Origin: Ectocarpus siliculosus
Lineage: Eukaryota > Sar > Phaeophyceae > Ectocarpales > Ectocarpaceae
DNA length: 64,000 nt
Assembly: GCA_000310025.1 (NCBI GenBank)
Contig: FN649757.1
Location: forward strand, 186,925-250,924
Direction of reading: 5' to 3'
The notes beneath the pieces were generated by a model, which made no database searches, was not told the DNA's origin, and saw nothing but the letters and a program-made list of their open reading frames with translations. Shown here one piece after another: positions 2,051 through 62,002 of the stretch (the stretch's first letter is position 1; each line of letters opens with the position of its first letter). Both the position numbers and the translations under genes were made by a program.

Positions 2051-2440
2051 ATGCTTCGTCAATATGAACAAAACCTTCGACTGTGTCGCTCGCTTAATAG
2101 GGTGGTGGAAGATCTCGCTGCAAGCGGGCCGTTTATGGCCTTGTCGGCGCAATCCGTAGATGGCATCGATGTCTGCGACGGCACGGAGGGCATGGATAGC
2201 GACAAAGGCGACGGGGCTCTCCTCGGTCACGGGCAGATCCAAGGTGAACAGGTGTCGGCCTGCAATAGTCCTGCGAGGATTATCGACACGGTCTCCGATC
2301 GGCCAACTGAGAACGGGACTGCGTCCACGAGGTTTCCCGAACTGAGTGAGGGCAGCGGTTTGATGGAGAGTTCTATGGATGATGAAATTGCTACCAAGGA
2401 TTGGTTGGATGCGACCCATGCCATGTTAGATGAACTCTGA
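2051..2440 (+). pseudogene. Copy F: terminal exon of the Zn2Cys6 gene family (5' part missing)
   Basis: The frame is open from an ATG at 2,051 to a TGA at 2,438-2,440. It matches the terminal exon of copy B (42,035-42,562): both share YE.NLR near the start, the DTVSDxPTE block in the middle, and an acidic end closing with DWLD.THAML. Copy F lacks about 40 internal codons present in B. No upstream family exons are visible; pogo and R1 relics lie there instead, so this is a detached 3' gene fragment. The acidic end with W and L residues resembles a transcription activation tail, which is inference only. Protein-level conservation suggests it was once coding. Confidence 0.6.
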
Positions 2441-3000
2441 TTTGTAACTCGAACAACCCAACTTTGTTGGCATCCTTTGGTTGGAACACCAGCGGGGCGC
2501 TTTCTTTCCTTCTCCCTTGTGTAGTCTGAATATGGCTAGAGGCTGCGTCACAACAGTCCATAGAGGCACAGCCTTTGCAATAAGAAGGTACGTCACGAGA
2601 AACGCAATTCAGTGATTACCATTGCCCCAATCTGTGCTTCTTGATATCTGAGGGTTTGGCGAAGGTTTTGAAGTTCAATGTATGTAGAGCTCATCACGGT
2701 GACATACGTTCGGCTTCATTCGCGTGGAGGAAGAGTACAGCACGCACATACCTTGCACCCGCAAAAAGTGTTGTTGACTCGGATTGTTTTCCTGGAAAGT
2801 GCGAAACCATGATGGCGATGGTTTGCAGCCTGTTCAGGAATTGCCACCAGAAGTAGGCTTGAACTAGTTGGCGGTGTTAATCGCTTCGAGTTCTTCGAGT
2901 TGTTCCTCTGTATTTGGTTATTATATCGCCTCGAGGGGTGTATTGCGAGGTGTGATATGCATGCGCACCTGCTGCTGCAGAAAGCCTTGAGAGAAAATCG
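2441..3000 (+). other. Conserved 3' flank of the gene family (copy F)
   Basis: This region aligns in pieces with 42,597-43,140 (copy B) and 28,430-29,050 (copy A), down to a shared block near gctgctgcag (about 2,970; 43,076; 28,984). It is probably 3' UTR plus downstream flank carried in the same duplication unit. Confidence 0.5.
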
Positions 3001-4689
3001 CCTGTTTAGGACGCATAGGTGCAAAATACAAGTAGGGCGTACCAGTTGCCGTGGAGTTTTGATTTTCTGCCAAGCACGCAAACGACTTGTTCTGAATCTT
3101 TAGGATTGAAGAACTCTTGCAGCCAGAATGCTGATTGGTCTTGAGGTATCATGACGACTGGCTGCTGCTGGATTGACACTCAGCACCCCTAGCTGCTCTT
3201 CGGCACGGGTCAGAAGTTGTTCTGAGATGGGGCATACGCAGCTGTAACAGTAGTTGGCTATCAACCACAGGCAGCCATTCAATCCTCGTGGTTTCTTGCT
3301 ATGAACGTCACTTCGGACTGTCTATCAGATTGTGACGTGTCGGATAACCTGTCGAAGAACGACCTTTGTGCGGTTCATCAGGCCCATGTGTGTTCGGGCT
3401 CGCTGACAGCATTTCAGGTCTTCATGCATGACGCGCAGCAGAGAAGAACAAGCACTCTGAGAAAGGCGAAAGATAGGAACAAAATTGTTGAGTGCGGCCG
3501 ATAGCGGAGTGAATTCAATATCCGATGTTTTTATGCCGAAGGCAGGGCGAGGTGGAGAATACAAACGCCGGCATGCCCCCAATGTATCACGTGCCTAATG
3601 AAGTTTGTCAAGCATATCTTGAGCTGATGGGCGAAAGAGAAGAAAAGGAAAAATGCAGGAAAAGAACGCCAAACGAGTACACAGCAGTGCAATAGCAAAT
3701 AAACGCCTTCGGTCGTTGCTTCAAGTTCTGAAGATTTAGCTTCAGCTCCTCAGACCAATATCCGTCGAAGTTTCATTCGACTCCCCCACCCCTTGCGCGA
3801 CCCTTCCCGAAATGCTGATCCCCAGCTATACTGCATATCTCGCCGCGGAGTCTCGAGTATGGTGGTTGGGTGGGGAATCCCAGATCATGACCCCTCCCCG
3901 AGTTTGACGAGCTTCCGCCTCCTGTAGCCAGCAAGAGTCGGTCTTGTCTGTGTCGCCACACGAACGTGGCGGTTGAACAGAGAAAGCGGGTCTGTCCGGT
4001 GCATCGCAGCATGTTGTTTTGTTTTTTCTTGCTGAGTGAGTGGCGCTTCCTACCTTGATGGTTTGTATCCCTCAGGCCGCCACTGCTGTGGTGGTGCACC
4101 ACAGCGGGCATCTCGGAGGTTACGGTCTCACTACTGTCAGTTTTGGACACACGCCCGTACGCGTCACTTATTCCCTAACGTGCACGGACAGCAACAATCA
4201 TCGTTGCTCTCGTTCGTGAGTACGACGCATGTTTGGAGTATACTATCTGCGGGTCTGGCCTTTTTTTGTCTCGTTCTTGCGCGTGTTCGGTTTGTGTAGC
4301 CTATGTATGTTGTTGCTTTGAGTGTCGCCGGACCGCATGTCCAGCAGGGTTTCCGGACGGCATGTCAACTGCCGCGATCGCTGCCCCTGGTCTTTCAGTA
4401 CATGGTTCGGTGGTGTGCATCTACGCGGCTACGCTCGTCTACATCGAACTTGGACGTTGATATTCAAGTTAACTTTGTTGGAACTGCCCGTCCCTTCGTC
4501 CATCTATACCTCATCATCCATACTATCAAACAAGAATAATATCATTGGCGGTGAATGAGCCGCAATCCACCAACTGAGGTTTTCAATGCAGTCGTTAGTC
4601 CACCTCCACCACGGAGGAAACGCCTTCGCCAAGAATTCTCCTTTCTTCCCTCTCTCCGCCCCTCCCATTTCCGGTTCTTGGACAGCAGC

Positions 4690-4690
<1 letters not shown>
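3001..4690. other. No supported gene
   Basis: Only short open frames without recognisable domains or conserved copies are present. I see nothing to annotate. Confidence 0.3.
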
Positions 4691-4691
<1 letters not shown>

Positions 4692-12480: not shown

Positions 12481-13572
12481 ACCGATCTACCGCTCCTTCG
12501 AGAGGCTCGAAGTGCAGCTCACAGTATCCATAGAAGAATGTCGGTAGGTCCGACCTGTGCTCGGTTGAACCCCGAAAACGTGACTCCGAGACCGCCTTAT
12601 ACTCTTGATGCTGTTGCTGTAAAGTGGATGAAATTGTCCACCGGAAGCACGTCAGAGAAACAAAAAATGCGAATTAGCTGGAACAGACCATTTTCACTCC
12701 CAGGAATGATGCAAGCAGGCCGCCGGACCGACTCACTTGAAATGTATATAACGCATCAGTTGCTGTGATACACAGAAGCCAGAACTGATTTGATCACGAG
12801 TCAGCAGCGATGCGCACTCATACACACGGCAGGGGCAGGGTAAAAGCGTCACCCAGTCTTGCATAACGCCGTACAGGTAGGCAAGCACTGCCATGCCAAT
12901 GCCCTGGGAGTACAAAAATGACCGACAAGAGGGACTGTCCGCGTGAATATTTATCTTTTTATAGAGCACCTTGGGCCCCATGGGAACGTGTGCATACGTC
13001 AGGCGTCCGAATCTACAGTGTGAACAGAGAATGGAAGGTCATAAGGCAGGGGTCCAGAAAGGGCGGATAACAAAGCGCAAGACCGGCCGTCATCTTCGTG
13101 GAGGGTATCCCTGCTGAATTCACTTCGCGATGTCAGCGTCTGCTGACCCGGGTTGTTATTAGCCAGTGTTTCGTAGGTATTTCGCCACCTACCACCAAGC
13201 CCAAGTGAAGCACGGAGGCCCACCGCATGAGCAAGCCACTCTGGCACCGCAAAATTGAAAATCAATCTCCACCAGTTTGGATTTGAACTTCACATGTACA
13301 TACTAGATTTGGTCACTTTTCATGCTCACGCATGTCTTTCTCTCGCGGCAACGAGTCTTTCCTCGGCATTCCTTCTTTGTGGCAGGCAGGAGGCTCGTCG
13401 GTACATTAACGCTGGTGCCCGGAGCTCGGTAGGCCTCCGTGGCAAGTGAGGTTGATGGTCAAAGTGGCGAAAAACGGTTCTATTCCCCGGGGGGACGTTC
13501 CGCACAGACAAAGCCTGGCGAACCAATTCTGAAAGCCATCAAAAAAGGGCGTGTGAAATATTTGTCTCTTTA

Positions 13573-14797
13573 GGCCACTTGTTAAGCTGTCCTTTTTTGG
13601 GCTGTCCCTTTTCTCAAAAAGGGACGAACCAAAAAAGAATCTAGCAAAAACATGACCCACTTGTTACGGTGCTGGTCGATCCTTTTTGCTCATCCGCCAA
13701 AAAAAATGACCCTGCAACAACAAGTGCAACGGCCGTTCGTCACCCAATGAGTACCTTGGCACCGAGTTGGTTTTTCGGTGATATCTCCGCACAGAGCGAA
13801 GCATCAGCAACTGTAAAGCTATCCCCCGCGAGCTGGGTGCTTGGTCCGCCTTGTGTGGCGGCTGATCGAGACCACAGGGCAGTGGGAGGCACGGCAACTG
13901 AGGTGGCGAGAGTCAACAGCACCTTGAAAAACCCCACCGCGCCAACAACCAGCTTTGTTTGCTCTTTTTTGCCCATGCCGCAACTTTGGTTCATGGATGC
14001 TCCCTTGCCACACACTGAAACAACAGCGATGACAAAGGTATCCGCCACGAGCTATGTGTATGGTCCGTCTTGTGTGGTGGTTGATACAGACCAGAAGGCT
14101 GACGGGCGGTCAGAGGTTGTGAGCCCGAGAGTGGTGGACAAGCGGGAAAAATGACCCGCCGCGTCTCCAAGCATATTTTTGGTTCTTTTTCCCCGTGTTG
14201 CAACTTTGGTTCATCGATGCTCCCTCGTCACACACCGAAGCAACAGCGATGACAAAGGTATCCGCCATGAGCTGTGCGTCTGATTCGTCTTGTGTGGTGA
14301 TTGATACAGACCAGGACGCTATAGGTCGCCCAGAAGTTGGGTTCGCAAAAGTTGACTGTGCACCAAAAAGACCCACCGCTGCTGCGCCCAGGCTCTTTCG
14401 GCTCGTTTGCCGCTTGTTTGCCGCACACATCGGGTTGTCCACCTGGTCAGCCGAATGACAACATTACGTCTATCGCCGAGGCTACTTACTCCGTACCAGT
14501 CACATGACACGACTCGTGCGAATACCGTTAGAGTTTGCGGGGATCATCCGTCGAGATATTCAATCAAGTTTGTGGGCAAGTGTCATGTGTTGTGACAGAA
14601 AAAGGACAACAAAAAAGGACCGTCCCATCCTGTCACAAAGTTGCCCAAAAAGGGACAGGATGGGGCGATCTTTTTTCGCTGTCCCTTTTCGGGAGGTTCA
14701 AAAATGCAAAAAAAGACCACGTAACAAGTGGTTCTTGGTCAGTTGTCCCTTTTTTAGAAAAGGGACAGCCCAAAAAAGGACAGCTTAACAAGTGGCC
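13573..14797. mobile_element. Harbinger-like non-autonomous DNA transposon
   Basis: Terminal inverted repeats of about 50 bp begin GGCCACTTGTTAAGCTG at both ends and run through a ctgtcccttttct block with only one or two differences. The element is flanked by TTA at 13,570-13,572 and 14,798-14,800. A 3 bp TTA target duplication with GGCC-starting termini is typical of PIF/Harbinger. No transposase frame is present. The interior holds about three tandem units of roughly 210-220 bp, near 13,780, 13,980 and 14,196. Confidence 0.75.
13775..14335. repeat. Tandem ~215 bp units inside the Harbinger-like element
   Basis: Each unit has a gcaactttggttcat block, a caacagcgatgacaaaggt block, a cttgtgtggtg block and a gatacagacc block. 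Units 2 and 3 are close; unit 1 is more diverged. Inverted relatives of the unit occur at 59,260-59,760. Confidence 0.6.
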
Positions 14798-14800
14798 TTA

Positions 14801-16020
14801 CACTGTCCATAACAAAAAAGACACATGACCCTCGGGCAATGCGTATGTGGTCTTGCGTCACCCGCGGGAAGCTTGACCCGAAAGGAGACCTCGTACAGTA
14901 GACTAAAGGATATGGAAAATCGGTTGCGCTGACAGCCGGTTCCATGAAACACGGTCTTCAGCAAAATAGATATGCAAGATCATGTTCCTACAGCAAATGC
15001 AAATCAGAATACGCATGATCGGCTTCATCGGAAGCGGATGCCTTTCCGAGACCTCGCTCAACTCCGCCCCTCGGGCGATCGCATCGAAAATCTCTTCTTC
15101 GTCTCAACGCCCAGGAACGTCAAACGGATACCCTCGGAGCCAGGTTTACGCAGCGTAACAAATGATTTTGGTCGTCCTACCTTCCCAGATGAAGGGCGTG
15201 CACTGCACTCGTCAATACAAATCCGACGTAGCTGCTTTGAGTCCAGCAACGCCATGAGTCGTTGGAATAACAGTACTCTGTATTGACTGTGCGAAGGCAG
15301 ATCGAGATCCAGGACTTGAGCACCGCACAGTATTCAAACCACCTGATGAAGCTCCGCACTCAGCCATCGATGTGCATGGTGGCGGGAAATTCGGAGGCTT
15401 GAGACGAATGTGGCCGGTAAATTGTGAGCCTCACACAATACTTGCCATCTGTCTGTCACGCATGCATCTGTCTGTCGGAATCATGTCTACGTTGTTGCTG
15501 CTCGTGCTCCTCGGCGGTGTGATGTGTGATACTTTGTCTCGCCAGGCATATGCCGCATGCGTTCCTCTTCCAGATGAAGGCATACTATTTGTGCGTGTTT
15601 TGCGTCGTCCGCAGAGCGGGAAGACTTGATATCATATTTTGTTTTTTTCGTGGGTCGTGGGTGTGGGTGTGTGCATCATCGTACCGCAGAGTGCAACATG
15701 TTGAACGGGGCCGCAGCACTACAGATAGCGCCCGCAGGCAAGGAAAAATCTGTTAAGAAGAATAGGCTAAGAAACACAGCTCAATGTCGGCCACAAACCA
15801 AGAAACTCCCCAATAAGAAACATGATGGTGCGACATACCCAAGACATAAGTAACAAGAGGTAGCTGGGGGATCGCGTCAAAGGCAAGAAACGTCCAACTG
15901 CTGCTCCGGTGCTCCCAACCCCCTACGTAACATAGCTGAACAGTGCATCGTTTTGTGCGGGGGAGAGTGGTTGGTTTCGCGGCGCCCCCCGCGCCCCTGC
16001 TGCTCACTGTGGTGTACTAC
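14801..16020. other. No supported gene
   Basis: Short frames only, with no recognised motif. This stretch lies within the span of decayed copy E. Confidence 0.3.
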
Positions 16021-16024
16021 TATT

Positions 16025-17128
16025 AGAGTTATTTAAAACTCGATTCATGGACCGGCGGGACCTTTTTGGGCCTTTCGCTGCTTTGTACATTTTTGGTGAA
16101 AAACTCTCGTGATATCAAACCCGAGAATACATCGTCACAGGATAAAAATACAGGACTGTTAGCCTGCGCCAATACATCCGCGGACAGCTGGTGTGTGGGC
16201 AAGTGGGCTGCCGTTGTGGTGCAGCCAAATTTGATCAACCAGAAACAAGCAGCATTCGAAATAAGAGTGCCTTTGTTCAAGGTTATACGAATATGCACAC
16301 CCTTACGTAGTGAACGAATAGCGGACAAGGCGCGTTCGTCTCTGCCAAGAGCGCCCCCAACCCACGCCAGCTGGTACTCCATATGTTGGCCCTCGGGCAC
16401 GTTGATTGATAAAAAACCGTTGGTCCTTTTTCTCTTTTTTTTTGTGCCAAAGACAAAACGAGAGAGAGGTAAGAAAAGACAGGCAGACAGGCATATACGC
16501 ACACCCTGTGCATCAACGGCAACAACAACCTCCAGCCTCCCCGCTATGCCGACTAGGAAGGGCCGCCCTCCCCCCCTCAAAAATAACGGGGCAGCCCATA
16601 AGCTACGCGGCGAGCCTTGTGGAACTGTGTCTGTTCGTTAGTTCGTCTGTGCTTGCGTGCGATGGCGGCACCAAAGAAAGCGAGAAAGAAAAAGGAGCAC
16701 GACGAGAGAGGAGGGCAGAGGGAAAAGAGAGGGTGCAGCAGCATGCAGCAACCTCACGTACGCGTTGATACGCATGCAGCACAAAAAAATATTCCGGGCA
16801 GTGCCTGAAAGCTTGGTTGGGGGCTGGCGGTGGTGGCGGCGTTTGTTATGACTGTTTGCTGTGTCTTTGCTGTTGTGACGGCGGTGACGTTTGCTGCAAA
16901 AGCGAGGAGAGAAGAGAGGGAGGGAGGGAGATAGAGAGAGCAGCTACAGTAGTAGTCTGTTCGTCTCGGAACACAAATATATACTTGGGGCTCTGGAGCC
17001 CCAAACATATTTTTGCTCACGATTCATGCATTTTTGCCCAAAAGTCCCCTCCGATATAAAACTCGATTCATCTACTTTTCGGGCTCTTTCACTGGTTTCA
17101 TGCATTCTTTCGAGTTTTGAATAACTCT
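16025..17128. mobile_element. Possible inverted-repeat element of 1.1 kb
   Basis: The left end AGAGTTATTTAAAACTCGA and the right end, reverse complemented, differ at one of 19 positions. ACTACT occurs on both sides (about 16,016-16,021 and 17,129-17,134) and could be part of a 9 bp duplication, though the last three bases differ. A second copy of aaaactcgattcat lies inside the right end at 17,059. No transposase is visible. Confidence 0.4.
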
Positions 17129-17634
17129 ACTACTGCATACAGTACTACTGCCACACATCGCGGACGACCACATGCTGTCCTGTGCGGGTTGACGGCACTC
17201 TCCACCACCTTTCGTGAAGGCTTGAGGAAGAAGTGGATTTTCCCCAGAGATCAAAAGGTAGAAATAAGGAATTGCGAAGGAATAAGAATGGACGACTTCG
17301 GCTGATCCTTCCACCCAAAATAAGAGGGATCGAGGCTCGACCCGGTTTTGACGTTTCTAAACTGCGGGCGCCATCTGTATTACATATTGGTCCAATGGCT
17401 GGTCCAATCGCTCGGTGCACGTAGCTGCACCACATACGATTCTTCACGCTGCTGTGTATCGGCATTGGCGCACCATCAGCATCGCAGATATACTGTAAGA
17501 CTATTGCACGGAACTGAGTCGACTCCGCGACTGCAAAAAATACCATTTTTTACGCCGCCCTCGTACGTCAGTAATCACCCCGCCCTCGTACATCGATCGA
17601 CTGAGCCTTGCCTCACCGACTGAGTCTTGCCGAC

Positions 17635-17778
17635 GAGGTCGCCATCACAGCTCTTCTTTTTCCGTCCACATTCTGAGCAACTTCGGCGCATTCCGGGCGG
17701 GGTCGGCCGGAAACAAGTCTCCTTACTGCCATCGCTGTTCTTCCCGTGATACAACGGCATCGCAGTTGAAGTATCCAT
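17635..17778 (-). pseudogene. Copy E exon 1 with broken zinc cluster
   Basis: Starting at ATG 17,778 the frame gives MDTS and then RRSCSECGRKKKSCDG. This matches exon 1 of copy B (30,582-30,727) in both sequence and start. A small deletion after CDG removes QRPC, and the GT donor reads ca here. The protein could therefore not complete the two-zinc cluster. Confidence 0.7.
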
Positions 17779-22439: not shown

Positions 22440-22547
22440 GTTCAGGCTGAGTGCATCTTCGGCGACTGGTCTCGTGGGGATGCAGGAGAACACCTTCCTC
22501 AGCGACTTCTTCGGCTGCGTCGGTTTTCTTCCGCTTACCACCCAGAG
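22440..22547 (+). pseudogene. Copy A exon 3
   Basis: The exon follows acceptor tgcgtccag and precedes donor GTATCG. It reads RLSASSATGLVGMQENT and then LSDFFGCVGFLPLTTQ, nearly identical to copies B and C. Confidence 0.75.
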
Positions 22548-23624
22548 GTATCGCATGAAGCTTGCTCCGAGTTATTGTACGCAGCAGGCGGTGCTTGGGT
22601 TTGACGCTGCATTGTTTCTGCTTGCCGACGTTAACTGAAGCAACGTCCACATGAGGCGGTGTGGTATTGGAGTGCTGGTGTTTTCCCCATACCATGGCCC
22701 TACCCGTGGCGTCTTTCGGAGTTTCGTTGTTTCGGCCAGTCACATTCGCGAGGCGATGGTGAAAATCATGACAACCCCCACCAGTCCACAGCATTCCGCC
22801 GTTGGGGGTGACTTCGACGAGAGTGGCCGTGTCGAAGCGATCGAACAAGGGGCTGAAAGGCATCACCTTCCAACGAACCCGTCATCCTGCACTTCTTGTC
22901 TGCAATCGCACTGGGGGCAACTGCGAAGGGTAGGTCCTTCGAATCGGTACCAAATGACGTGTTTCCCGTATGTTGCCGAAACATGCCTCGCTTACCTGAC
23001 AACGGAATAGGTATTTCTCGTTCCTGAACGTTGTTGAAAATCTCGACTGGTTTTATGATGTAGATTCAAGCACGAGCATTCAAGGTCCAGTCATAAACCA
23101 TGGTGGGACGAAAGTATCCACCGACACCAGAATGTCGTGAGAGTGGGTACCAGGCGGCGATGAGGCCCGACCACTGCTTGACCTGGACATCCCGGAAGGC
23201 TTTCCCCTTTCTGTTGGCTCAACATTTCTCATACGCCCGTTCTTGTGTATCTCACCCGTAAATATGCCTGCATGTCGACATGGGATGCCATCACTCCGGC
23301 AAGCAGACAAGACGTTCGTGGTGGCGTCTGCAGCCATCTCATCAACGTGTAAGCTGGGGGCGCGTTGAAGACAATAAAGGCATGCATCCATACGACGTGA
23401 TTTCCGAGAGAACCCCAACTGTTCTTGTCGACATGAGGTGTTGTGTATTGGGTGCTCGTGAAATGATGTCTTAGTTGGTTTGGTTTTTTGGTAACAAGGT
23501 GATCAGAACAAGTCTTCTGATCTATCATGACTCAATTTGTACCTAGGCGACACGCAAGAAAATCATGTCCCCCTTGCGGTGGTTCGCCCTTGATCCTTAC
23601 CCTCGAACACGCGGAATGCGACAG

Positions 23625-23738
23625 GACCCTTGTCTTTCAGAACGCAGCCAAGAGCGATCTGCACGCCGCTCTGGTGGGAACCGGCCGCTGTGTTGAGGTT
23701 TTCGAGCGATATCCTGGCATTTGCCGGGGCACGATGGG
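23625..23738 (+). pseudogene. Copy A exon 11
   Basis: It has the same length and borders as exon 11 of B. It reads TLVFQNAAKSDLHAAL and then GRCVEVFERYPGICRGTMG before GTGAGT. Confidence 0.7.
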
Positions 23739-24529
23739 GTGAGTCGCGTGTTCGCCCTCAGCACATGAATCAGTGATTTGACGTCGTTTTCTTGTTCATG
23801 GGGATGCTCCGGTTATGGTGTTGACAGAAGGCGTGAGCTAGATTGGCTGCTCCTTGCCATCGGTATCTGCCTTTCACGAAAACACAACGCTGTAGGAGAA
23901 CTTCGTCCATGCACAATCATTTTTGTGGCGAAGGAGGCATCTCCACCGGGTGGTTGATACTCCATAGCGTGAACCATCCACGATCAAGTTTCCCGCCGAA
24001 ACGCTTGATACCTCCCAGAGGTATTGACGTAGAGAGTTGAGGCTCACTCGAACGACTCCGTGAGGGTTCACACAGAACCACAAATGTGGTGCTGCGATCC
24101 GAAGCTTGATTTCGCGACGCAATCCACATGCGAGCTATACATACAAATGATGAGATTTTGCCGGAGTCGCGGATTGTGGTTGGTTCTGGGGTTTGCATTC
24201 ACCCAACGTTCGGCAGCATACGACCCGTGATCACGTCGACGCGGTTACTACAGAACGCGCCACCACTTAAGAACCGCTAATTTAGCTTGAGGCTCGACGC
24301 TTATTGGTTACCTCCAACCGTGCACATGTTCTTATTTTCCAAGTTTTTATTTGGAGCAGGTATCCACCTATGGTAAACGAGGTTCTTGTTCTTATTTCTA
24401 TACCGATTGCCGTATGCAGAGGACACAGACAGGTCTTTCTGCGTGGATTTCATTACGAGACACTACTGCTGAAAGAGTACAATGTAGCCGTAAAATCGCC
24501 CCCTAGGTGGCAGTGCCACATGTACGGTA

Positions 24530-25070
24530 TGGGAGAGGAGAGGTTGCCGAGAAAGGCTTAGGAGGCGAAGTGGACAAACAAAAAGAACTGGTGTACCAAC
24601 CTACGGAGAGTTAATGTTGTAGATGACGCATGGAAGGGGGTCCAACTTGACAAAGGCGAAACACTCGAGAGGGGAGGTCAAGAGGGGTTCAAGGAGAAGA
24701 TATATGTTGCTACTTTGGCGAGAGAGAAGGACAGGATCAAACCAAAGAAACCAAGGACACGGAGGGTCTCGATGTGTACGGAATATCAAAGAAGGAATAT
24801 ATTTAAAGATTACCTACATGGAGGGCCAATGGATGCAGGGACAAAGCTGAAGGTCAAACCTAGGACTGGGGATGTTGGCCTTTGAGAACGTAGACGAAGA
24901 TTGAGGAAGGTAGACGATGAAGACGACAAACCCAGGTGTGATTGCGGCTCCGAGGGCGAAGACCATCTTCATGTACTTGTGGAATGCCCGTGGTACAAGA
25001 AGGAGAGGGAAATGTACATGACTGAGCTAGCTGGGGAAAACAGTAGAAGGAAAAAGTACAGAAAGAAAGA
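24530..25070 (+). pseudogene. LINE (non-LTR) ORF2 C-terminal relic, unit 1
   Basis: In one plus-strand frame the sequence reads LKVKPRTGDVGL, a TGA, then RRRRLRKVDDEDDKPRCDCG and GEDHLHVLVECPWYKKERE. The RTGxxGL...CxCG...EDxxHxLxECPxY pattern is the C-terminal end of many non-LTR retrotransposon polymerases. Stops interrupt the frame and no reverse transcriptase core precedes it. Confidence 0.65.
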
Positions 25071-25389
25071 CACTTGACGAATGTAAATAGCCAGGAGAAG
25101 ACGGTAGGTGTACTGGGGCATAGGAAATGGGTTGAAATAAGGCGGAAAGTGATACCGATGGGAAAACATGTTTGAGGACCTTTTTGACAACGTAGGAAGG
25201 AACGATTGGCCATCGGTGATCGAACCTGTGGGAACAATGCTCCGTCCTGTCGAGGACGCGTGGTCAACGGTCTAACCGCTAAGTAAGGCTGCCAAAACAT
25301 GAGAGAGACTACACCCCCCTTCGGATCCAACTCCTACGATCGGGAAGAGGCGTAAGTAGGTTAAAATGGCAGGTAAGCCGTATGTTGTA

Positions 25390-28000: not shown

Positions 28001-28032
28001 CAAGGCCCATATGCTTCTGGTTTGTCTCGCAG

Positions 28033-28174
28033 CGATTGACCACCCTGGAGCTCCAGCGATGTACGACAAGTTGCGGGTGTTCTACAATTTGTTTCGCCCT
28101 TCTGGCTCACGGGCCGTACCCCGTTTGGAAGAGTGGCACGGAGTGGATGCCTTCTGCAACGACATCTATTGCAG
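28033..28174 (+). pseudogene. Copy A exon 12
   Basis: The exon lies between acceptor tctcgcag and donor GTACGT and is 142 nt, identical in length to B. It reads YDKLRVFYNLFRPSGS and then RLEEWHGVDAFCND, closely matching copy B. Confidence 0.75.
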
Positions 28175-39700: not shown

Positions 39701-42562
39701 TGAGAAATGGGCGTTGTATCGATTTCGAGCCGCTTGAAGAAGCGGTAGATCGGTGAGTCGAAAGATGTGATGCAGACACCAGTGAGCACACCCAAGATCG
39801 TAAGGCACCATGGTCGGACTATAGATATCCACCGATATGGGGGTGCCATGTGAGCGTGGAACATCAGGAGCCATCGAGGCCCGACCACTCCTTGTCCTGG
39901 ACATGCAGGAAGACTAGTTCAAATGGCTCACATCTTCCCACTCGCCCGATGGTGTACATGTCATTCGCAACGGCCTGCATGTCAACATGGAATGCGATCA
40001 TTCTGGCGAGCAGACCAACTATTCGTGGGGGTATTGGCAGCCTTCTCATCAACTTGTAAGTTGGGGATGTGGAAATCATACGCGGATTCATTGCAGTTGT
40101 AGACGTAACTGTATGCGACCACGCGATCCCGGGTTTCGAAAGAACCCCAGCTGTTCTGGTCGACAGAGGGCGATGTATTCCTTGTGTCCGGCGACACGAT
40201 GTCTCGGTTGGTCGATGAATTCTTGCGGAAGACTCAGACGACACATTATTGGCGTTATTTCGACTACTGTTCATCCGCTTTGCTCTTGAACGTTTCTGTG
40301 GGCCACGGAAAATGCTTGCCTGTCTCCATTGAGACTTTGTCACGAGGGATGTCGTTCGCCCTTGATCTTTAGTCCTGTAAAATCCAAAATCCGACAGGAC
40401 CCTTGTGTTTGTAAAGGGAGCAAAGGGGGATCTCAATGCCGCCCTGGAGAGAGTTGGCCGCTGCGTTGCGGTTTTCGAGCGATATCCTGGCTTGTGCAGC
40501 GGCACGATGGGGTGAGTTGATTGCCCGCCCTCCGCACGTGCAGAGGTGATGGTCATTTTAATTCACGCTCATGGGGTAGCCTCTGGTCGGAGTTGGCAGA
40601 TGGCGTGGACTAGGCTCGCTGCCCCTTGCATTGTCCGTGGGCCTTTCACAACAGATTCATGGAATCTCTTCTCCTTAACGTAGGCAGTGTCGTGCCCTTA
40701 TGACGTCAAGGGAAGATACCTCAGTCAGCTTGTCATTAGTCAAATCACGTGCTTTCTTATTGAACGTTTGAGCACTGCGGTGCGCTTAACAGTCAACCTC
40801 CTGCGCGACTAGCAGACAGCTCCATCATGGCACAGGGGTGAGGCCACGGCGAAATTTTGTCCCAACCGACAGAAATACCGCGTTCACCGAAAATATTGCA
40901 GTAGCAAATCTCTCATGACACGTCTGTCATGGTGCATCGAGCGGTATGAGCTAAGAAGCGACATTTGTGAAAGCCTGTGACCCCGTTCCCCACGCTGCCA
41001 CCGTTTGTATGAAAGGTACCACAATGCACACATAGTGCTGGTATGTCTTGCAGCCATCAGCGACCCCAGAGCTAGAGCGATGTACGACAGTTTGCGGGCG
41101 ACCTACAATTCTTTTCGCCCTGCCGGCTCTCTGCCCGTACCCCCTTTGGAGGAGTGGCACGGTGTAGATGTCTTCTGCGACGACTGCTATTGCAGGTGTG
41201 TAGATTTTGCAGCCGGTGCCGTTCGCAGATACATGGTGAACGCGACTGCTGGAAAAATGGGACGTGGTAGGACGTGGTACGGGTCCCAAGCGTTGTTTCC
41301 GTGAGAAATATATTCCTGCCGCGCTGGGTGTATGATGAATTCCTCAAGATGCGCTTGTAGTTGTACCCTGGAACACATGTGATCAACCCTTACTACGTGA
41401 GTCATTTCCCTCCCTTCGGGACGTGGGTGTCAAGCCTCCTGCGGGTGACGTAAGATCACATGCACATTGCCCGAAGAGAGGCTGTGTCTTAGTTGTTTCG
41501 GCAGTTTTATCACGCTCGTATTCCGTACTAACATCGTACACGTAGGTATTCCACATTGGAGCCAGCTCGAGCGGACAACAACTCGCCGGCGAAAATTCAG
41601 ACTTGTTCTATGAGCGTTTGATCGTAGATTTGCAATGAGAATCGCATTTGAATCCGAAACAACACCACAAAACAAAAACGTGTTCAACACTGCGGGTGCA
41701 TGCGCAAAGACGTTTCTTCCGTAGTAGCGTATCACTTTACCAGCTTAGAAGTGAAATAGAGCAAACGTAGGTACTGCTGGACATCGCGATGACACAAAGA
41801 CGCACAGCGATGCGGAATCAGGAAACGAATGAATGAACTTGGAGATGAACAAGAGGAAAATATTTCACTCGTCCTTATTGATGAGTTTCAGAATTGGTTC
41901 GCCAGGCTTTGTCTGCACGGAACGCGTCCCGTGGTATAGGACCACTTTTCCCTACTTAGATTGTCAACCGCACGCGCCACGTAGGCCTAGCGAGAGAAAG
42001 AAATACCGAAGCATGCAAAGGGAACAAATCGTGTATGTCCTATGAACACAATCTTCGCCCGTACCGCTCGCTTCGTAGGGCGATCGAGCAGCTCGTTGCA
42101 AGTGAGCACATTACGACTTTCTCGGCGCCAAGCGTAGACACCATCGACGTCGGCGATGGAACGAACGGCACGGATAGCGACCACGCCGACGAGACTCTCC
42201 CCGGTCACGGGCAGAGCCAGCCTGCATGGCCGTCCGCCTGTAACACTTCCCAGATGGTAATCGACACAGTCTCCGACTGGCCGACTGAGAGGGGGGCTGA
42301 GCATCGGAGGGGTTCAAGTGTAGGGTCGACGAGCCCAACTGCTCGTCCAGTATGCTCGAACTATCTATGCTATCAGTCAGAGGATGGACTTCACTCTAAC
42401 CGCGTTGAAGCCAGCTTTGCCAGCGTGGCCATGGCTCCCGAGCCATTGTCAAGGATAAAAGAACTGAGCGAGGACGGCGGTTGGATGGAGGATAGGGAGG
42501 ACGATGGCGTCGGCGCAGAGGATTGGTTGGATGTGACCCATGCCATGTTGGGTGCGCTCTGA
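30582..42562 (+). CDS. Copy B: Zn2Cys6 transcription-factor-like gene, most complete family member
   Basis: Exons placed by comparing copies: 30,582-30,727; 36,969-37,148; 37,447-37,554; 37,768-37,990; 38,164-38,240; 38,481-38,526; 38,756-38,839; 39,111-39,209; 39,487-39,752; 39,918-40,055; 40,398-40,511; 41,054-41,195; and a terminal exon ending at 42,562. Each listed internal border is AG/GT, and phases chain exactly from exon 1 through exon 11. A small exon between 40,512 and 41,053 (present in D at 57,703-57,761) and the start of the terminal exon are unresolved. The predicted protein is roughly 700 aa: an N-terminal two-zinc cluster, a long helical-looking middle and an acidic C-terminus. 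The likely role is DNA binding in the nucleus; targets are unknown. Intron 1 is 6.2 kb and holds a hAT-like element. A non-functional copy cannot be excluded. Confidence 0.7.
31190..31236 (+). repeat. (CACCG)n minisatellite, left
   Basis: About eight cacc g units lie in tandem. Degenerate versions continue to about 31,375, including ttcacggtgcggttt, which repeats the inner part of the element end. Confidence 0.8.
32620..34905 (-). CDS. Possible low-complexity gene or gene fragment inside the hAT-like element
   Basis: GC-rich minus-strand frames follow each other. One at 34,905-34,570 reads TSESVMEDIYRRMVVQQTR and continues into a GTGAGT donor-like site near 34,602. Others are Gly/Ala/Ser/Glu-rich (33,988-33,653; 33,158-32,847; 32,962-32,696). 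The last, 32,850-32,620, ends in a basic RKRVKRACDW stretch that recalls the start of a Zn2Cys6 cluster but lacks the other cysteines. No frame is decisive. It may be a captured host gene fragment or simply GC-rich repeat. Confidence 0.3.
35471..35541 (+). repeat. (CACCG)n minisatellite, right
   Basis: About fourteen units lie in tandem, followed by gtgaccatg and then cggtgcggttcacaccgtg near the right end of the hAT-like element. Confidence 0.85.
35602..36968. other. Rest of intron 1 of copy B
   Basis: A minus frame at 36,331-35,645 (228 codons) and several frames around 36,490-37,170 are open but lack recognised domains and conserved copies. I treat them as chance frames within the intron. 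Confidence 0.35.
36969..37148 (+). CDS. Copy B exon 2: last two cysteines of the zinc cluster
   Basis: After acceptor ggtggtag the exon gives RCVRSGSQCTYSKRR, supplying the fifth and sixth cysteines and a basic linker. Joined to exon 1 it completes C-x2-C-x6-C-x5-C-x2-C-x6-C. The exon ends GCGAG before GTACAC and leaves two bases, which exon 3 completes in frame. The match in copy C is 62,002-61,819. Confidence 0.75.
37224..37265 (+). repeat. 21 bp tandem duplication in intron 2 of copy B
   Basis: The unit cgtacagacgtgcggtgctgg occurs twice in a row. The aligned region of copy A at 22,075 lacks the duplication. Confidence 0.85.
37447..37990 (+). CDS. Copy B exons 3 and 4
   Basis: Exon 3 (37,447-37,554) reads GLSASPATGLVGMQENA and DFFGCVGFLPLTTQ. 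Exon 4 (37,768-37,990) reads HIRETMVNIM, then LPMNPSTCTFWCAIALGAL and GSPLES before GTACGA. The junction codon is split AG/T. Copies A and C keep the same borders. The CTFWCAIALGAL helix resembles the start of the middle homology region of fungal-type Zn2Cys6 regulators, which is inference. Confidence 0.75.
38164..39209 (+). CDS. Copy B exons 5 to 8
   Basis: Exon 5 (38,164-38,240) reads VAKYCQLAHEALAKSS and DAEVAK. Exon 6 (38,481-38,526) reads AWAIMGYLYGFMGDS. Exon 7 (38,756-38,839) reads ARYQHYLALSESFLRSS and STDNLPV. Exon 8 (39,111-39,209) reads GFAEVVKFKEFADSSCG and ends TNPQ before GTGTGT. Exon 5 has the same 77 nt as in copy C, and exon 8 has a 108 nt counterpart in D. Phases run 2, 0, 0, 0 without a break. 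The segments look like helical pairs. Confidence 0.7.
39487..39752 (+). CDS. Copy B exon 9
   Basis: After acceptor gattccag it reads EIYRYVAQSFKAFEQ and ends DFEPLEEAVDR split before GTGAGTCG. Copy D (55,576-55,853) has YRYVSQSLSAAAQ and FEHLLETADR, with the same phases (0 in, 2 out). Copy E keeps only the end. Confidence 0.75.
39918..40511 (+). CDS. Copy B exons 10 and 11
   Basis: Exon 10 (39,918-40,055) reads PMVYMSFATACMSTWNA and ASRPTIRGGIGSLLIN before GTAAGT. Exon 11 (40,398-40,511) reads TLVFVKGAKGDLNAAL and VAVFERYPGLCSGTM before GTGAGT. Exon 11 is 114 nt in A and B and 117 nt in D, all with the same phases. Confidence 0.7.
41054..41195 (+). CDS. Copy B exon 12
   Basis: Between acceptor gtcttgcag and donor GTGTGT, 142 nt read AMYDSLRATYNSFRPAGS and LEEWHGVDVFCDDCYC. 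Copy A has the same length. D is shorter (124 nt) with the same phases. Confidence 0.75.
42035..42562 (+). CDS. Copy B terminal exon with acidic C-terminus
   Basis: The frame is open from at least 42,035 to the TGA at 42,560-42,562. The true acceptor is uncertain; one candidate precedes gcatgcaaagg at about 42,012. It shares YEHNLR, TIDVGDGTNGTDSD, DTVSDWPTE and the end EDWLDVTHAMLGAL with copy F. The acidic tail with Trp and Leu could serve as an activation region (inference). Confidence 0.6.
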   Translation: MSYEHNLRPYRSLRRAIEQLVASEHITTFSAPSVDTIDVGDGTNGTDSDHADETLPGHGQSQPAWPSACNTSQMVIDTVSDWPTERGAEHRRGSSVGSTSPTARPVCSNYLCYQSEDGLHSNRVEASFASVAMAPEPLSRIKELSEDGGWMEDREDDGVGAEDWLDVTHAMLGAL

Positions 42563-45769: not shown

Positions 45770-45893
45770 ATGGGAACAACAACGATGGCCGAACGGAGAC
45801 TTGAGTGCGGAGGCCGTCCCTGCCTGGAATGCGGAGGAGTTGCTCAGAATGCGGACGAAGAAAGAAGAGATGTGACGGTCAACGACCTTGCGG
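45770..45893 (+). pseudogene. Copy D exon 1
   Basis: The zinc-cluster half is intact and followed by a good donor. The region before it is shorter than in B, and the Cys of the ATCLRP block is replaced by a TGA. Confidence 0.65.
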
Positions 45894-46057
45894 GTAAGAC
45901 GGGCATCAGGGTTGGAGCAGTTTCGGAATGAATCCGGTTCAAAGTACTGTAGAAGGGCCGGGAGACATAGACGAATATGTCAAGTTTCGGGTCGAGGCTC
46001 ATTCTGTCAGGTAACATTTGTCTCAAATTTCGTGCACGTGTACCGGTGTTGCTGTGT

Positions 46058-52869: not shown

Positions 52870-54440
52870 TAGCACCTGCTACTGTCTTGCAACGACCATG
52901 TACATGCTTTCCACATGTGGGTACATCTGATTTCTTGGAATTGTCCATCCGTGTAGATTCCGACGACATCGATCCACCAAACAAACACGCGAAGACACCC
53001 GCTGATTTATAGTCTCCAGCGTGCACAACGCATCATCCGACGGCACATTTTTTCTGCTGTTGCTTCTGCGTACGTGTACATGAAGACGGACAAGAATAGT
53101 TCCAATACATCTATGGGATGCGATAAACAATACCATGCGTTCTCACATCGCCTCAATCAAGGACGCTATGCTCACTCAACACACGAAGATAACCTTGTGG
53201 AGTATATTTTTTTATGTGGATGACTTCCTGTGCAATGGCGGAATTTTTCGGAGGCCGCCGCTAAGTGCCCTGGTTGAGAATATGCTTGTGGGACTAAATA
53301 GTCACCGCGTTCGTGTGCAGTCATTTTCTATTCCAGAGATCTACCTGGTACTTCGATTTTGATTGTGTGTGCGTCTAAGTGAACCCAACTGCAATCATGG
53401 TGGGAACGGGTTGTGATAACCTGGGTTCAGCGTGCCCATCTGTAGCAACACCCCCACGCGGTAGATCTCCGACAGGTCATCTGACATCACAATCTACGAG
53501 ACAGTAGGTTGAAGTTGCTGTTTTCGGGTGGGTGAATTTTGCGGACTACTGGGTGGGTGCACGACACACTGGACGCAAATCACCCCGCTTTTCGTCGGGA
53601 TCGAAAGGGAGACGCAATACAGCAGTCGGGTGCTTTGTCTCGTGGCATGCGGAGACTTGGTTGTCGCGTGTGGCTAAGGTGTTAGTTCGTGTGTACATGC
53701 GGTCAACGCTGAAGAATCGGAAAACGGACCGCGTCGTCAGCCTCTTCCAGTAGCCAATGTATGAATTGAATGGCCTACACTGTCAAGAAACCGGACTGTG
53801 ATTGGTAAGCCCTCGTTAGTACCGGGGCTGCCAGGGTGTGAACCGTAGCCACGCTGCCCAAGGTGGCCAATGGTTGAGGTCGACGGCAGTGTGGGCGTGA
53901 GGCGCTCGCGTGCTGGCTACTGATGGGGCTTCTGGAAGGAGCGTTGGTGTGCATGCAATAGACTGAACGCACAGCCGATTGTCCGAAAAGTAGGATGATG
54001 TTGTTGCCGTCCGACGTCCGATGAGTAGTTTGCTCTACGCGTGAAGCCACCGACATGAGCATCTTGACGAAAGTGTGCAATGCCATCGCGGGGAGGTCAT
54101 CTCGGCAGCTTCTCGAGGAATTACCATGGTATTCGCAGAGATAAATTGATGCGCTTGGTAGGCTGCAGAATCGCGTTGCTCAGACGTTTGCATCCCGATC
54201 ACGGCGCTAGCGTCGCGCCGTTGCTCCTCTTGCTTCATGCCACTCAGCCGTCCGACGACTGAAATACGTGGTGCATCGCCAACACGACGCGGCGATGAAG
54301 TCCGTTGTAGGCTTACCAATCTCTAACGCAGTGCTCCCTTGAAGCAGCCCGGGGCAGGAGTTATTGCGCGGTTTCCATCAGATTTATTGCTGTCTTTGAT
54401 CGTTGTGTCTGCTCAACCCACGTATTGACGCATGTATCTT
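52870..54440. other. No supported exon
   Basis: Exons 2-7 of copy D would be expected between the zinc-cluster exon and 54,447, but I could not align any. Plus frames at 53,135-53,362 and 53,532-53,753 have no conserved counterpart. Confidence 0.3.
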
Positions 54441-54446
54441 GGCCAG

Positions 54447-54554
54447 GGATTCGCTGAGATGATGGGCCAAACGATGAATGTCCAGGCGTACTCTGGACAT
54501 CTAGGCACTGCGGATGTCGAGTCTTCGGCCGCCCGACGCCAACATCCTCCGCAG
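54447..54554 (+). pseudogene. Copy D exon 8
   Basis: After acceptor ttggccag the exon reads GFAEMMGQTMNVQAY and ends HPPQ before GTGTGT, in phase 0 on both sides as in copy B. Confidence 0.65.
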
Positions 54555-54905
54555 GTGTGTCCTGCATGGCGTAGCAAAGCCGATTGGCCTAGACGTCAAA
54601 GGGCCACTGCAGTTGCTGCATTTCTGATGAATATGTTTGGGATCGCTCATCACCCGAGTTTGAGCCATGGGCTCTTCTTGCGGAAAGTGTCCGCTCTGCC
54701 CTGTTCTCTCTGTGGTGTTGGGTGGTTGTTGTGTTCTGCGCTCAATTTCTGGAAACATTCGATGGGTTTCTCTGTGTGCTTTATCCCGTCTGTGCGAACT
54801 AGGTTTGGAGAGTGTGTACTGGGTAAAGTAGAACTTTGGTCATGTGAAGCATACAACAATACCGTAATTGGATCATGTGAAGCAGGACCAATACCGAAAT
54901 TGTGC

Positions 54906-55365
54906 GTGTTATGGCATCGGGGTGCGGTCGTTTTTTTTCATCATGGCGATCTTGGTTTTTTGTTGCACCCCGGTGCGATAACACCGATGGCTGCCATAGC
55001 ACCGATACCGGTGCGGAAATGCAATTAAATCATATCGTTCTAAATTTCCAACGCACCCGCGGTGCGTTGACACCGATGGGTGCGATACTCAAGAAGCGAA
55101 CACAGGCATTCCCCCATTTGGTACCTACAGGATCCTCTCGGCCGTTCGTTACATACACTTCCACGTGCCCAGGAGGGTACCGGCACCTTGCGGAAGGACG
55201 CAAATCTACGTCCAAAGCAGGTGTAATATCGTTGATGCCGCACCGGGTGCGTCAACACCGATACCGGTGTGGAAATTCAATTAAATCATGTCGATCTCGA
55301 TACTTTTCCGCACCCCGGTGCCATAACATCGATGGGTGCTAAATCAACGATGGGTGCCATTACCC
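54906..55365. repeat. Palindromic short repeats around caccgataccggtg
   Basis: caccgataccggtg and an attcaattaaatcat-like block occur at about 55,000-55,045 and 55,256-55,301. Shorter caccccggtgc blocks lie around them. This may be a small palindromic element duplicated in tandem. Confidence 0.5.
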
Positions 55366-55575
55366 GCACAATCACCGTACCAGCAGCAAAGACATCCGAA
55401 AACAACCATGGTTGCAGCCCGTACCCTTAACATTTCGTGTGACTTCGTGGAATCTCGAGGCGGCATGCACTTTGCACTTGGCACAAGGCCTGCCGATGTC
55501 AGGTAGTCGAGGAAAATGGTGGCGTTGCGCGATTGTGAATGATGACGAGAACTGCACCTCCACCCTCTTCTGCAG

Positions 55576-55853
55576 TTCGTCATGGTCCAGATCGACCCAG
55601 CTGCATGCGAAAGGGATACATATCGGTATGTTTCGCAGTCGCTTAGTGCGGCTGCGCAACATGCCTTCGAGAGAGCTTGCGAGGACAAGGCGACGATCAG
55701 ACCCTCGAGCGATGACGAGCCTTGCGAGGAGAACAGGGGGGATCTTAGGCAGCACGGCAACGCCCCCCAAGCTGAAGAGGTGTCTGATGCTTTGGTGGCT
55801 GGGCTCAAAGATGACGTGATCTCGTTCGAACACCTACTAGAAACAGCCGATCG
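55576..55853 (+). pseudogene. Copy D exon 9
   Basis: After acceptor cttctgcag it reads CERDTYRYVSQSLSAAAQ and ends FEHLLETADR split before GTAGCA. It is 278 nt against 266 in B, with the same phases. The frame is intact. Confidence 0.7.
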
Positions 55854-56361
55854 GTAGCAAACTTTCAACGTTGTTTGACGGATTGCTTTCAAATGCCATA
55901 CGACGTCTCTAGACCATACCCATATGGCCGAAACAAAATGCTCGTGTTCTGCACCTCCTCTAAGCAGAGGTCGATCCCTATTTCCGCACTTGATAGTATC
56001 AGCATAGAGTTCCTGCATTCTTACAAGCGCCTATATTTCCCTCCGTCCTCATGCCGGCCGTCACCTGCATGGCGAGCAGGCCAAGCATTCGCACTAGCTT
56101 CGCGGTCTCCTAATTAACCTGTAAGTACATCCTGACCAACGGGATCGTCACTGTCGAAAACAACGCAAACGGTGCTGTGTTCTTTGCGCGTCATGCTTGA
56201 GGCTCCGTAGAGCTATGAACACTTCCATATTTGCACCACCACACGAATGTTTGGGTATTGGTGAGAAGGTGCAATACTCCGGCTCATACAAAACGATGAC
56301 TCACAGCATGCTCTATGTTGACTTCGCCATCTCTACCATGACACGATCCGTGTTTGACAAG

Positions 56362-56478
56362 GACCCTGGCATTTCAGAAAATAGCGAAAGGGGACGAAGA
56401 TGGGGCGCTGGAGAGGTTTGGATATTGCGTCCAGATGTTCGAGGTGTACCCAGACGTTTGTCGCTGCGAGTTGCACTG
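56362..56478 (+). pseudogene. Copy D exon 11
   Basis: After acceptor tttgacaag it reads TLAFQKIAKGDEDGALERF and QMFEVYPDVCRCELHW split before GTGAGC. Phases equal those in A and B. The frame is intact although the residues have diverged, which suggests selection after duplication. Confidence 0.65.
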
Positions 56479-57235: not shown

Positions 57236-57239
57236 TTTC

Positions 57240-59760: not shown

Positions 59761-59769
59761 GAGGACCAA

Positions 59770-60330
59770 ATCCGTGGGAAGGTACAAGTACGTATGACGC
59801 GTATACGAGTTTCAACGGAGGTTGCGGAGTTCGTTTGTTATCGATGACTCGGATGAGAATTTATAGGATCGACTGCGCCGTAAGAAGTGGGTCATCCTTC
59901 TTGCATACGTTTCGGGTTAAGTGTAATCTGATGATTTGGGGGTTACGAAGCCTGGGCCTTGGGCCCTCATGGTTGACATCTGCTAGGGCTCCGTGGATGT
60001 CGGCACGACTGATGCCCTAACCAATGGAAGCATGTCTTACATATCTCCACACGGATCGTTGGTACAAGTGTAGAGTGATAACGTCGGTCATCTGTCAATC
60101 ACCTGAACACGTACCGTGTTTTGGGTTCGTTCCTTTTGGAAAAATGGGCAAGCCGCAACAAAAACTAAATGCCTATCCATATCTACCAACCTCGACAAAA
60201 TGTCCGTGCATTCGACGAGGACCGAATTTGAACGAACTGCAATGAACGTGCGCACAGAGTCTTACACTGTTTCCAGGCTCCCCTTCGGGAGTTTGGTGGC
60301 TTACCTCCAGCAGACAACGCAAAGAGTAAA
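59770..60330. other. No supported gene
   Basis: Short frames only, downstream (minus strand) of the last exon seen in copy C. Confidence 0.3.
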
Positions 60331-60338
60331 TGGTCAAC

Positions 60339-62002
60339 GTTATCGCACAACAAACCGTACAAGGCCAACATCCCCCATGCCCTCCCTGGCAAGGGGAAGA
60401 TATACCGAAAAAGGAGGCGATCGGCGTGAAGGTTCATCATAGAATGGAGCCCTGCTAAATCGAATAAGCTTGGCGAGCCCCCCGGGAACGTGAGCACCAA
60501 GTTGTGAGTTTGAATCTAGCGTGAGCTGAGGTCGAAAGCCGTTCAGTAGACGTGACTGGGAAGAGACGGTCACAAAGTGCAGGGCAGCAGCTAGTATGTT
60601 GGAGGATAAGTCCCCGATGGACTCACCTCGCGATCTCGGCGCCTGCGAGACCCGAGCTGCTCTTGGCCAGCGCATCGTGGGCCAGTTGAGAGTTTTTCAC
60701 CACCTTTCATCAAGCACCCGTGAGTCAGTGAGTCATGGGGGTCTGATTGATGAGCACGCTACGGCGCTCTACGCACGCAAAATCTGCAGTCCACCAGGTG
60801 GGACATCGTTTTCGGAAAGGGGGAACTGGTTCCACTGCCAGGTATTCAACATTCGTTCTCAGCAACACCGGGTGACAAACACGCCACCTTCTTACCGACT
60901 CCATGAGACTGCTCTTCCCAAGCGCCCCCAGAGCAATTGTGCACCAGAAAGTGCAAGATTGTGGGTTCATAGGAAGCTGATTCCATTCCGAGGCCCTGTT
61001 CCAATCCGCCCAGCGTGCGATTGAAATGAAACGCCCTTCTTCACCCCAGTCGCAGTCGCCCCAACGGTTGGTCGCTGTAGAGGACACAAGGCGGTAACGA
61101 TCTTGAACATCACCTCACGAATGCGACTTGCAAAATGCCGAAATAACTGCAAAGGTACCATGGGTAGGGCGATGGTACGGGGCAGCAAGGGGCGAACCAT
61201 CAGTACCACAGAGACACACCAGCACCGCGCCATGTAGATGCCGCTTCAATTACTTCGGAAAACTTGCGAAATTGAGGCGTGCAACGCACACAGCTCCAAG
61301 CGATACCTATGGGTGGTAAGCGGAAGAAAACCAACGCAGCCAAAGAAATCGGTGAGGGAGGTATTCTCCTGCATCCCCACGAGACCAGTCGCCGGAGATG
61401 TGCTCAACCTGAACCTCTATGCGAAAACAGAATATGGAGAAAGGGACGATAAACACGCGTTACGAAGTGCTTACGGAAGACACCGCGGTCGCTCACCATC
61501 AACGCTGATGGGGGGTTCTGGATGGCTGATCCACCTTTGCGTCAGATGCGTATTTTTAGTTAATTCCACAGAAAAAGGGAACCCGCGTGTTCCCAAGCGC
61601 GCCTAACGGTCGCTGCACGGAACAACACTAGAAGTCCAATCACAGCGGTGCCGGCCAATACAACACCTTCCCGTGACTATCAAACCCTCCAACACTTGAT
61701 GCACAGAGACATGATTCGAGAGATATCGATGCACTTATCAAGGCATTGGTTGTTGGTCGGAGTGTCCAAGCGGTACATCAATGCACAACGCAAAGGGGAT
61801 GGCCAACATGATTGTCACCTCTTCAACGGCAGCCCTCCAGGTGTCGTCGGTGGGCCGGGACGGAGATGATTGAAGCAGGGCCTCTCTACCGTGTGCTCCA
61901 TCAAGACCAGGGGGCTGAGACTGAAATTGCTCCTGATGTGATTGGGGGAGATGCCACCTCCGTTTGCTGTACGTGCACTGGCTGCCTGTCGTCACACAGC
62001 AC
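60339..62002 (-). pseudogene. Copy C: Zn2Cys6 family gene fragment, frameshifted
   Basis: On the minus strand exon 2 (62,002-61,819), exon 3 (61,414-61,307, 108 nt), exon 4 (about 61,132 to a GTAAGA donor near 60,890), exon 5 (60,703-60,627, 77 nt) and exon 6 (60,385-60,339) align with copy B. Exon 2 gives RCCVTTGSQCTYSKRR but is 4 nt longer than in B, so the frame does not join exon 3. Exon 4 changes frame near its start, and exon 6 is one base longer. Exon 1 lies outside the window or is lost, and no exons after 6 were found. Confidence 0.7.
61819..62002 (-). pseudogene. Copy C exon 2, end of zinc cluster
   Basis: After acceptor tggttgcag the frame reads CCVTTGSQCTYSKRRWHL. This fits the last two cysteines of the cluster as in copy B. 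Confidence 0.65.

Follow-up and report, generated by a model that had tools for sequence, protein, structure and literature searches.

A stretch of the Ectocarpus siliculosus genome that very probably lies within a birth-and-death tandem array of Zn2Cys6 transcription-factor genes

To what kind of sequence do the exons that recur along 64 kb of the genome of the brown alga Ectocarpus siliculosus belong, and does their recurrence end where this stretch ends? The stretch in question (the window: 64,000 nucleotides, C32:186925-250924, on contig FN649757.1) had been predicted from its letters to hold at least six copies or fragments of one Zn2Cys6 transcription-factor-like gene, on both strands and with exons recurring at the same borders; the letters used for these copies (F, E, A, B, D and C) were assigned here by left-to-right order. 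Comparison of the window with itself brought out blocks common to 2.1, 13.4, 22.4-28.2, 37-42.6 and 60.4-62.0 kb, on both strands; the same blocks reappear at the protein level, and in pairwise alignments of the window copies exon-like conservation stops at AG/GT borders. A tblastn scan of C32:10-251 kb with exon peptides (14 peptide sets, E up to 0.05; the 241 kb tile scanned holds 15,754 N, that is, gaps) returned 144 matches vs 10 in the reversed sequence, so that a few of the 144 are due to chance. Self-comparison, alignments and scan thus all reproduce the recurrence on which the original prediction was built. Judging from the predicted genes and proteins described below, we consider it very likely that the window lies within a birth-and-death tandem array of Zn2Cys6 transcription-factor genes.

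Copy B is intact, with 13 exons at 30582-42562 (+) and a predicted spliced product of 682 amino acids. Its exons are the following.

30582..30727, plus strand: exon 1, with the start codon and the first zinc-cluster half RRSCSECGRKKKRCDGQRPC; donor AG/GTGAGA
36969..37148, plus strand: exon 2, with the second zinc-cluster half RCVRSGSQCTYSKRRRR and a linker; the spliced protein scores 34.1 bits with PF00172
37447..37554, plus strand: exon 3, 108 nt, with the signature SASPATGLVGMQENAFLSDFFGCVGFLPLTT
37768..37990, plus strand: exon 4, from the gene model
38164..38240, plus strand: exon 5, 77 nt
38481..38526, plus strand: exon 6, 46 nt
38756..38839, plus strand: exon 7, 84 nt
39111..39209, plus strand: exon 8, 99 nt
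39487..39752, plus strand: exon 9, 266 nt
40014..40055, plus strand: exon 10, 42 nt, with a possible acceptor 3 nt upstream
40398..40511, plus strand: exon 11, 114 nt
41016..41195, plus strand: exon 12, 180 nt
42079..42562, plus strand: exon 13, the acidic C-terminal part, ending in EDWLDVTHAMLGAL followed by the stop codon

The join between exons 1 and 2, over an intron of 6.2 kb, is one that we infer. The predicted product is laid out as an N-terminal split zinc cluster, a conserved middle that no Pfam family matches and an acidic end bearing the motif WLD, of which W671, L672 and D673 are invariant among the eight proteins aligned. Of the 18 copies modelled as genes, C32 contributes nine (g1-g8 plus the window gene), C34 six, C16 two and C116 one, and WLD lies within the last 60 residues in 16 of these models, the exceptions being g2, which is frameshifted, and C16b, which is cut. 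Introns separate the exons in all 18 models, and 16 are free of internal stops; exon 1 is present in nine, eight of which are open from ATG to stop. Exon lengths vary little: exons 5, 7 and 12 measure 77, 84 and 180 nt in 18/18 models, exons 6 and 9 measure 46 and 266 nt in 17/18, and exon 3 measures 108 nt in 15/18, while the 114 nt of exon 11 in 18/18 are partly a product of construction, as the script aimed at that length. Our exon numbering agrees with that of the original prediction for exons 3, 5, 11 and 12, which suggests that exons 1 and 2 had probably been recognised there too, and the lengths it gave for the first three of these (108, 77 and 114 nt) were recovered in both the window-copy alignments and the models. 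Its 142 nt for exon 12, in contrast, has to be corrected: that reading begins at an AG inside the 180 nt exon and is out of phase with exon 11, whereas an upstream acceptor gives 180 nt in phase in every model.

An additional candidate exon at 37634-37695 ('e04') was rejected, being found in five places only (g6, g7, the window gene, copy C and a partial C116 copy); in g6 it is interrupted by a stop, and when it is left out the phase between exon 3 and the exon that follows is kept. This stretch and two others in the introns, 36600-36800 and 39807-39990, are conserved between copies, some of them with protein-like similarity, and may represent old exons, conserved intron elements or just recent duplication.

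The two halves of the zinc cluster lie on separate exons, exon 1 and exon 2, in the window copies and the other models alike, and the junction between them is a phase-2 intron. The window has three exons of the first type (+30582-30727, +45805-45894 and -17641-17718), and an upstream exon on C116 also bears the first half (RRSCSECGRRKKSCDGQRPCG). Joined in phase, the halves read C-x2-C-x6-C-x5-C-x2-C-x6-C in 9/9 models with exon 1, all of which agree with the six-cysteine spacing given for the class, C-x2-C-x6-C-x5-16-C-x2-C-x6-8-C (PMC4827209). The four spliced proteins scanned with PF00172, out of the nine models with exon 1, all exceeded its cut-off of 21 bits (28.0, 29.2, 33.6 and 34.1 bits). 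When the product of the intact gene was compared with PDB (E up to 1), nine of nine matches were zinc-cluster regulators (Pho7, Put3, Gal4 and Lac9), with E-values of 7.4e-5 for Pho7, 0.0012 for Put3 and 0.0047 for Gal4. A profile of the family likewise ranked Put3 (3.2e-5) and Pho7 at the top; among its 21 matches with E up to 10, the weak ones include ecdysone receptor and a maltose-binding fusion, and the long CBF3 subunit B chains align with it in the zinc cluster alone. The Lys-Lys pair in the C-x6-C part we take to match the DNA-contacting lysines of Gal4. The Zn2Cys6-type identity that had been proposed is borne out by the canonical cluster, its spacing and the Pfam scores together.

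In the unspliced genome, PF00172 matched at 12 places, none of which corresponds to the exons of the family, because the exon junction cuts the cluster. One of the 12 is a different, unsplit zinc-cluster exon (WSCDYCTRRRKDCDSATPC) at C32:151417-151536 (-), inside the array and on the opposite strand. A loose six-cysteine pattern also occurs in the unspliced frames of the window at 5308-5421 (+) and 36757-36858 (-), outside the frames of the family exons (30 simple shuffles gave a mean of 0.0).

Searches of the whole 189 Mb assembly (492 contigs) revealed that the family extends far beyond the window. The window gene as a query gave at least 83 matches genome-wide (68 of 305 candidates scored), and the protein of a second, divergent subfamily gave at least 113 (110 of 260 candidates scored). 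The family is present on eight contigs (C32, C34, C16, C116, C11, C3, C492 and C30). Counted by hand from the two queries and the exon scan, exon 3 occurs at no fewer than 48 places: at least 29 on C32, between 18.7 and 678.7 kb (~660 kb) and with a median spacing of 20 kb, seven on C11, six on C34, two on C16, and one each on C116, C3, C492 and C30. These counts are lower bounds, since only the best candidates were scored, and they include remnants and single-exon matches (on C30 and C492, for example), so that not every place is a whole gene. The window therefore sits within a tandem array larger than the window itself. No telomere repeats were seen in C32:1-10000, though this piece starts with N. 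The EsV-1-7 domain (PF19114), whose expansion is found chiefly in brown algae, gave at least 150 matches over its cut-off in the same genome (150 of 880 candidates scored), as is to be expected of a brown alga. For Ectocarpus species 7, 90 EsV-1-7 proteins are given (PMC12629598).

On C32 the first subfamily occupies 18-249 kb, and the places matched by the second-subfamily query span 242-679 kb. Members of the latter were inspected closely at three C32 places (L028, L029 and L032) and at one on C11. Eleven of the 13 exon types could be recognised by eye, the others being exons 5 and 10. The second subfamily has a zinc cluster of its own, with halves ~0.4 kb apart, and the C-terminal sequence DWLDISQAMMDA is present in two of the three copies compared.

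Selection and phylogeny were analysed in 15 of the 18 models, with g2, C16a and C16b omitted. The ratio of nonsynonymous to synonymous divergence (dN/dS) ranged from 0.31 to 0.69, below 1 in all 105 pairs, with a median of 0.45; pooled, it was 0.46 in the coding frame vs 1.10 and 1.23 in the shifted frames. Constraint is unevenly distributed along the gene. Among the eight full models dN/dS was 0.20 for the zinc cluster, 0.18 for exon 3 (0.14 among the 15 models), 0.33 for exon 12, 0.51 for exon 8, 0.54 for the linker, 0.60 for exon 9, 0.68 for the last exon and 0.69 for the N-terminal tail, with no part above 1. Selection thus holds the zinc cluster and exon 3 and leaves more freedom to the N-terminal tail, the linker, exon 9 and the last exon. 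Synonymous divergence (dS) among the paralogues has a median of 0.75. The tree groups g7 with g8 (support 0.991), g1 with g3 (0.997) and the six C34 copies with one another (1.000), a grouping of neighbours that fits local duplication.

Around the intact gene, the window contains the following further copies.

2101..2440, plus strand: copy F, the last exon of the upstream gene g8 (exon scan and gene model)
12482..17718, minus strand: copy E, decayed, with exon 1 at 17641-17718 and remnants at 15020-15118, 12551-12613 and 12482-12529
22441..28175, plus strand: copy A, decayed, with exons 3, 4 (frameshifted) and 10-12
45805..45894, plus strand: an orphan exon 1 GMRRSCSECGRRKKRCDGQRPCG, part of copy D, from the exon-peptide scan
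54408..56467, plus strand: copy D, a second-subfamily remnant, with pieces at 54408-54575, 55591-55854 and 56360-56467
60626..61998, minus strand: copy C, a fragment consisting of exons 2-5 only

The other exons of g8 lie to the left of the window (C32:167861-179949), and we infer that its last exon is joined to them across a gap of 9.1 kb. The exon-peptide scan did not find exons 1, 2, 5-9 and 13 of copy A, and no plus-strand exon 2 follows the orphan exon 1 within the window. With intact and decayed copies adjoining one another and neighbours grouping on the tree, the proposal of a local birth-and-death cluster in a non-fungal eukaryote fits what we observe.

Several other features lie among these copies. 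A Copia-type reverse transcriptase (47394-48827, plus strand; PF07727, 146 bits) follows shortly after the orphan exon 1, and this retroelement may have broken that copy. A fragment of a DDE superfamily transposase (20491-21039, minus strand; PF03184, 92 bits) lies between two array copies. An inverted repeat pair, 50457-50743 / 63081-63370, is 97.6% identical, with a more diverged copy alongside at 63707-63991, and is perhaps a recent insertion. A unit of ~800 bases occurs twice in tandem (70% identical) at 24521-26160, between exons 11 and 12 of copy A, and a run of N lies inside the open reading frame (ORF) 50204-50587.

The presence of these elements raises the question of whether a mobile element carries the exons and has spread them, in which case the repeats would not constitute an independent gene family. 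Besides the reverse transcriptase and the transposase in the window, the occurrence of copies on both strands and of the family on eight contigs would fit such an origin. Both element ORFs, however, lie outside the repeated exons and match other Pfam families. The copies are neither intronless nor scattered: introns are kept in 18/18 models, and the family is mostly clustered, 29 of the 48 exon 3 places falling within 660 kb. Purifying selection acting in frame, together with the open models, makes the copies look like genes and not like a mobile element, and we regard the latter as exceedingly unlikely, in keeping with the gene family originally put forward. The zinc-cluster match itself could conceivably be an artefact, the modeller having joined two unrelated Cys-rich exons, as the halves lie on separate exons that are up to 20.9 kb apart (in g6). 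Yet both halves occur in order in many copies, the phase gives C-x2-C across the junction in 9/9 cases, and the halves of the second subfamily are only ~0.4 kb apart; to this explanation we assign next to no probability.

It might also be argued that most of the array is dead and that it persists as a relic cluster with few or no expressed copies, given that four of the six window copies are remnants, that g2 and C16a are frameshifted and that dN/dS reaches 0.63-0.69 in some recent C34 pairs. We find this quite improbable in the face of 16 of 18 models without an internal stop, 105 of 105 pairs with dN/dS below 1, and the strong constraint on the zinc cluster and exon 3. That a fungal gene was recently acquired by horizontal transfer and then amplified would accord with zinc clusters being best known from fungi. 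It appears very unlikely, however, considering the median dS of 0.75 among the paralogues and their division into two subfamilies; moreover, the class is reported in several algae (PMC4827209), so that a recent transfer is unneeded.

Several observations count against a birth-and-death tandem array of Zn2Cys6 transcription-factor genes, the reading that we nevertheless prefer. The gene models are predictions from the DNA sequence; their splice sites were picked by script near expected positions and with a set phase, so that the borders are partly a matter of construction, and exons 10 and 11 were also picked towards a set length, with stops inside exons left in. Nine of the 18 models are without exon 1, five of these also without exon 2 (five models, on C34 or similar, begin only at exon 3), and one, C16b, is without its last exon, close to the end of the piece examined. 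Exon 1 of g1 was not found in C32:1-18 kb, nor was that of the C34 and C16 copies within the pieces examined, the regions beyond which were not searched. The first introns assumed are long (2.1-20.9 kb for the eight models on C32 that include exon 1, and 1.45 kb for the C116 model), and some of the joins between exons 1 and 2 may therefore be wrong. Two of the 18 models (g2 and C16a) are broken by frameshifts, four of the six window copies (A, C, D and E) are remnants, and a dN/dS near 0.45 is only moderate. The tree fails to separate the window gene from the copy on another contig, C116, and leaves g5 without a firm place (support 0.392). PF04082, the fungal middle domain, gave no match (E up to 1) in the four spliced proteins scanned and none over its cut-off in the genome, where the best score was 18.7 bits vs 23. 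CGG pairs are not enriched in the 500 bp upstream of eight starts (7, 6 and 6 CGG-CCG, CCG-CGG and CGG-CGG pairs observed vs 9.7, 10.2 and 7.5 in shuffles), a result that leaves autoregulation unsupported and bears on autoregulation alone.

Gal4, Put3 and Pho7 recognise CGG-type half-sites, and the N-terminal cluster of the algal proteins would, like theirs, bind two zinc ions and half-sites of this type. The conserved middle might substitute for the fungal middle homology region as a sensor or dimer part, and the acidic C-terminal segment with WLD would recruit the transcription machinery, the product acting in the nucleus as an activator. New copies would arise through tandem duplication at the DNA level, as suggested by the introns they keep. 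Given a conserved cluster and a linker and ends that are freer to change, the paralogues probably share their core targets and half-sites and differ in dimer (half-site) spacing, input or output.

The algal family shares with the fungal PF00172 regulators (Gal4, Put3, Pho7) a six-cysteine cluster at the N-terminus, its spacing and basic residues included, and an acidic C-terminal end. Unlike them, it has a cluster split by a phase-2 intron, no detected PF04082, a conserved middle of its own with the exon 3 signature, and a tandem array. Mammalian KRAB zinc-finger clusters, in which many paralogous DNA-binding regulators occupy one region and undergo births and deaths, offer a parallel in genomic organisation; in the algal array, by contrast, variation falls on the linker and the ends, and the DNA-binding part ranks with the best conserved. 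Closer to Ectocarpus, 'fungal TRF' genes are listed for haptophytes and for the photosynthetic stramenopiles N. gaditana and P. tricornutum (PMC4827209), and in Ectocarpus gametes two such genes rank with the most highly expressed regulators (PMC3879662). These genes of stramenopile and haptophyte algae belong to the same class as the family described here, the likeness being one of class, and the portions of the two accounts available to us, which deal with counts and expression, say nothing of a tandem array. Nor did we find, in the open-licence literature (long listings of which were seen in part), a report of a tandem array of zinc-cluster regulators in brown algae. The class is thus already known in stramenopile algae, and what sets the present family apart is the array, the split cluster and a middle that matches no Pfam family.

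Little seems to be known about the roles of zinc-cluster regulators in algae. We tentatively raise the possibility that the array supplies dozens of regulators in turnover that combine one DNA-recognition part with varied linkers, sensors and effectors and a middle domain unknown elsewhere, perhaps in the control of the life cycle, gametes or defence. If true, the array would be a regulatory counterpart of the recognition-gene arrays of animals or plants. It would form a large and unstudied part of the regulator set of a brown alga, and since complex multicellularity evolved independently in brown algae, it matters which regulators expanded there. The array also constitutes a natural experiment, in which neighbouring genes conserve the DNA-binding part but differ in linker and ends, and it suggests that zinc-cluster regulators can multiply in bulk outside fungi.

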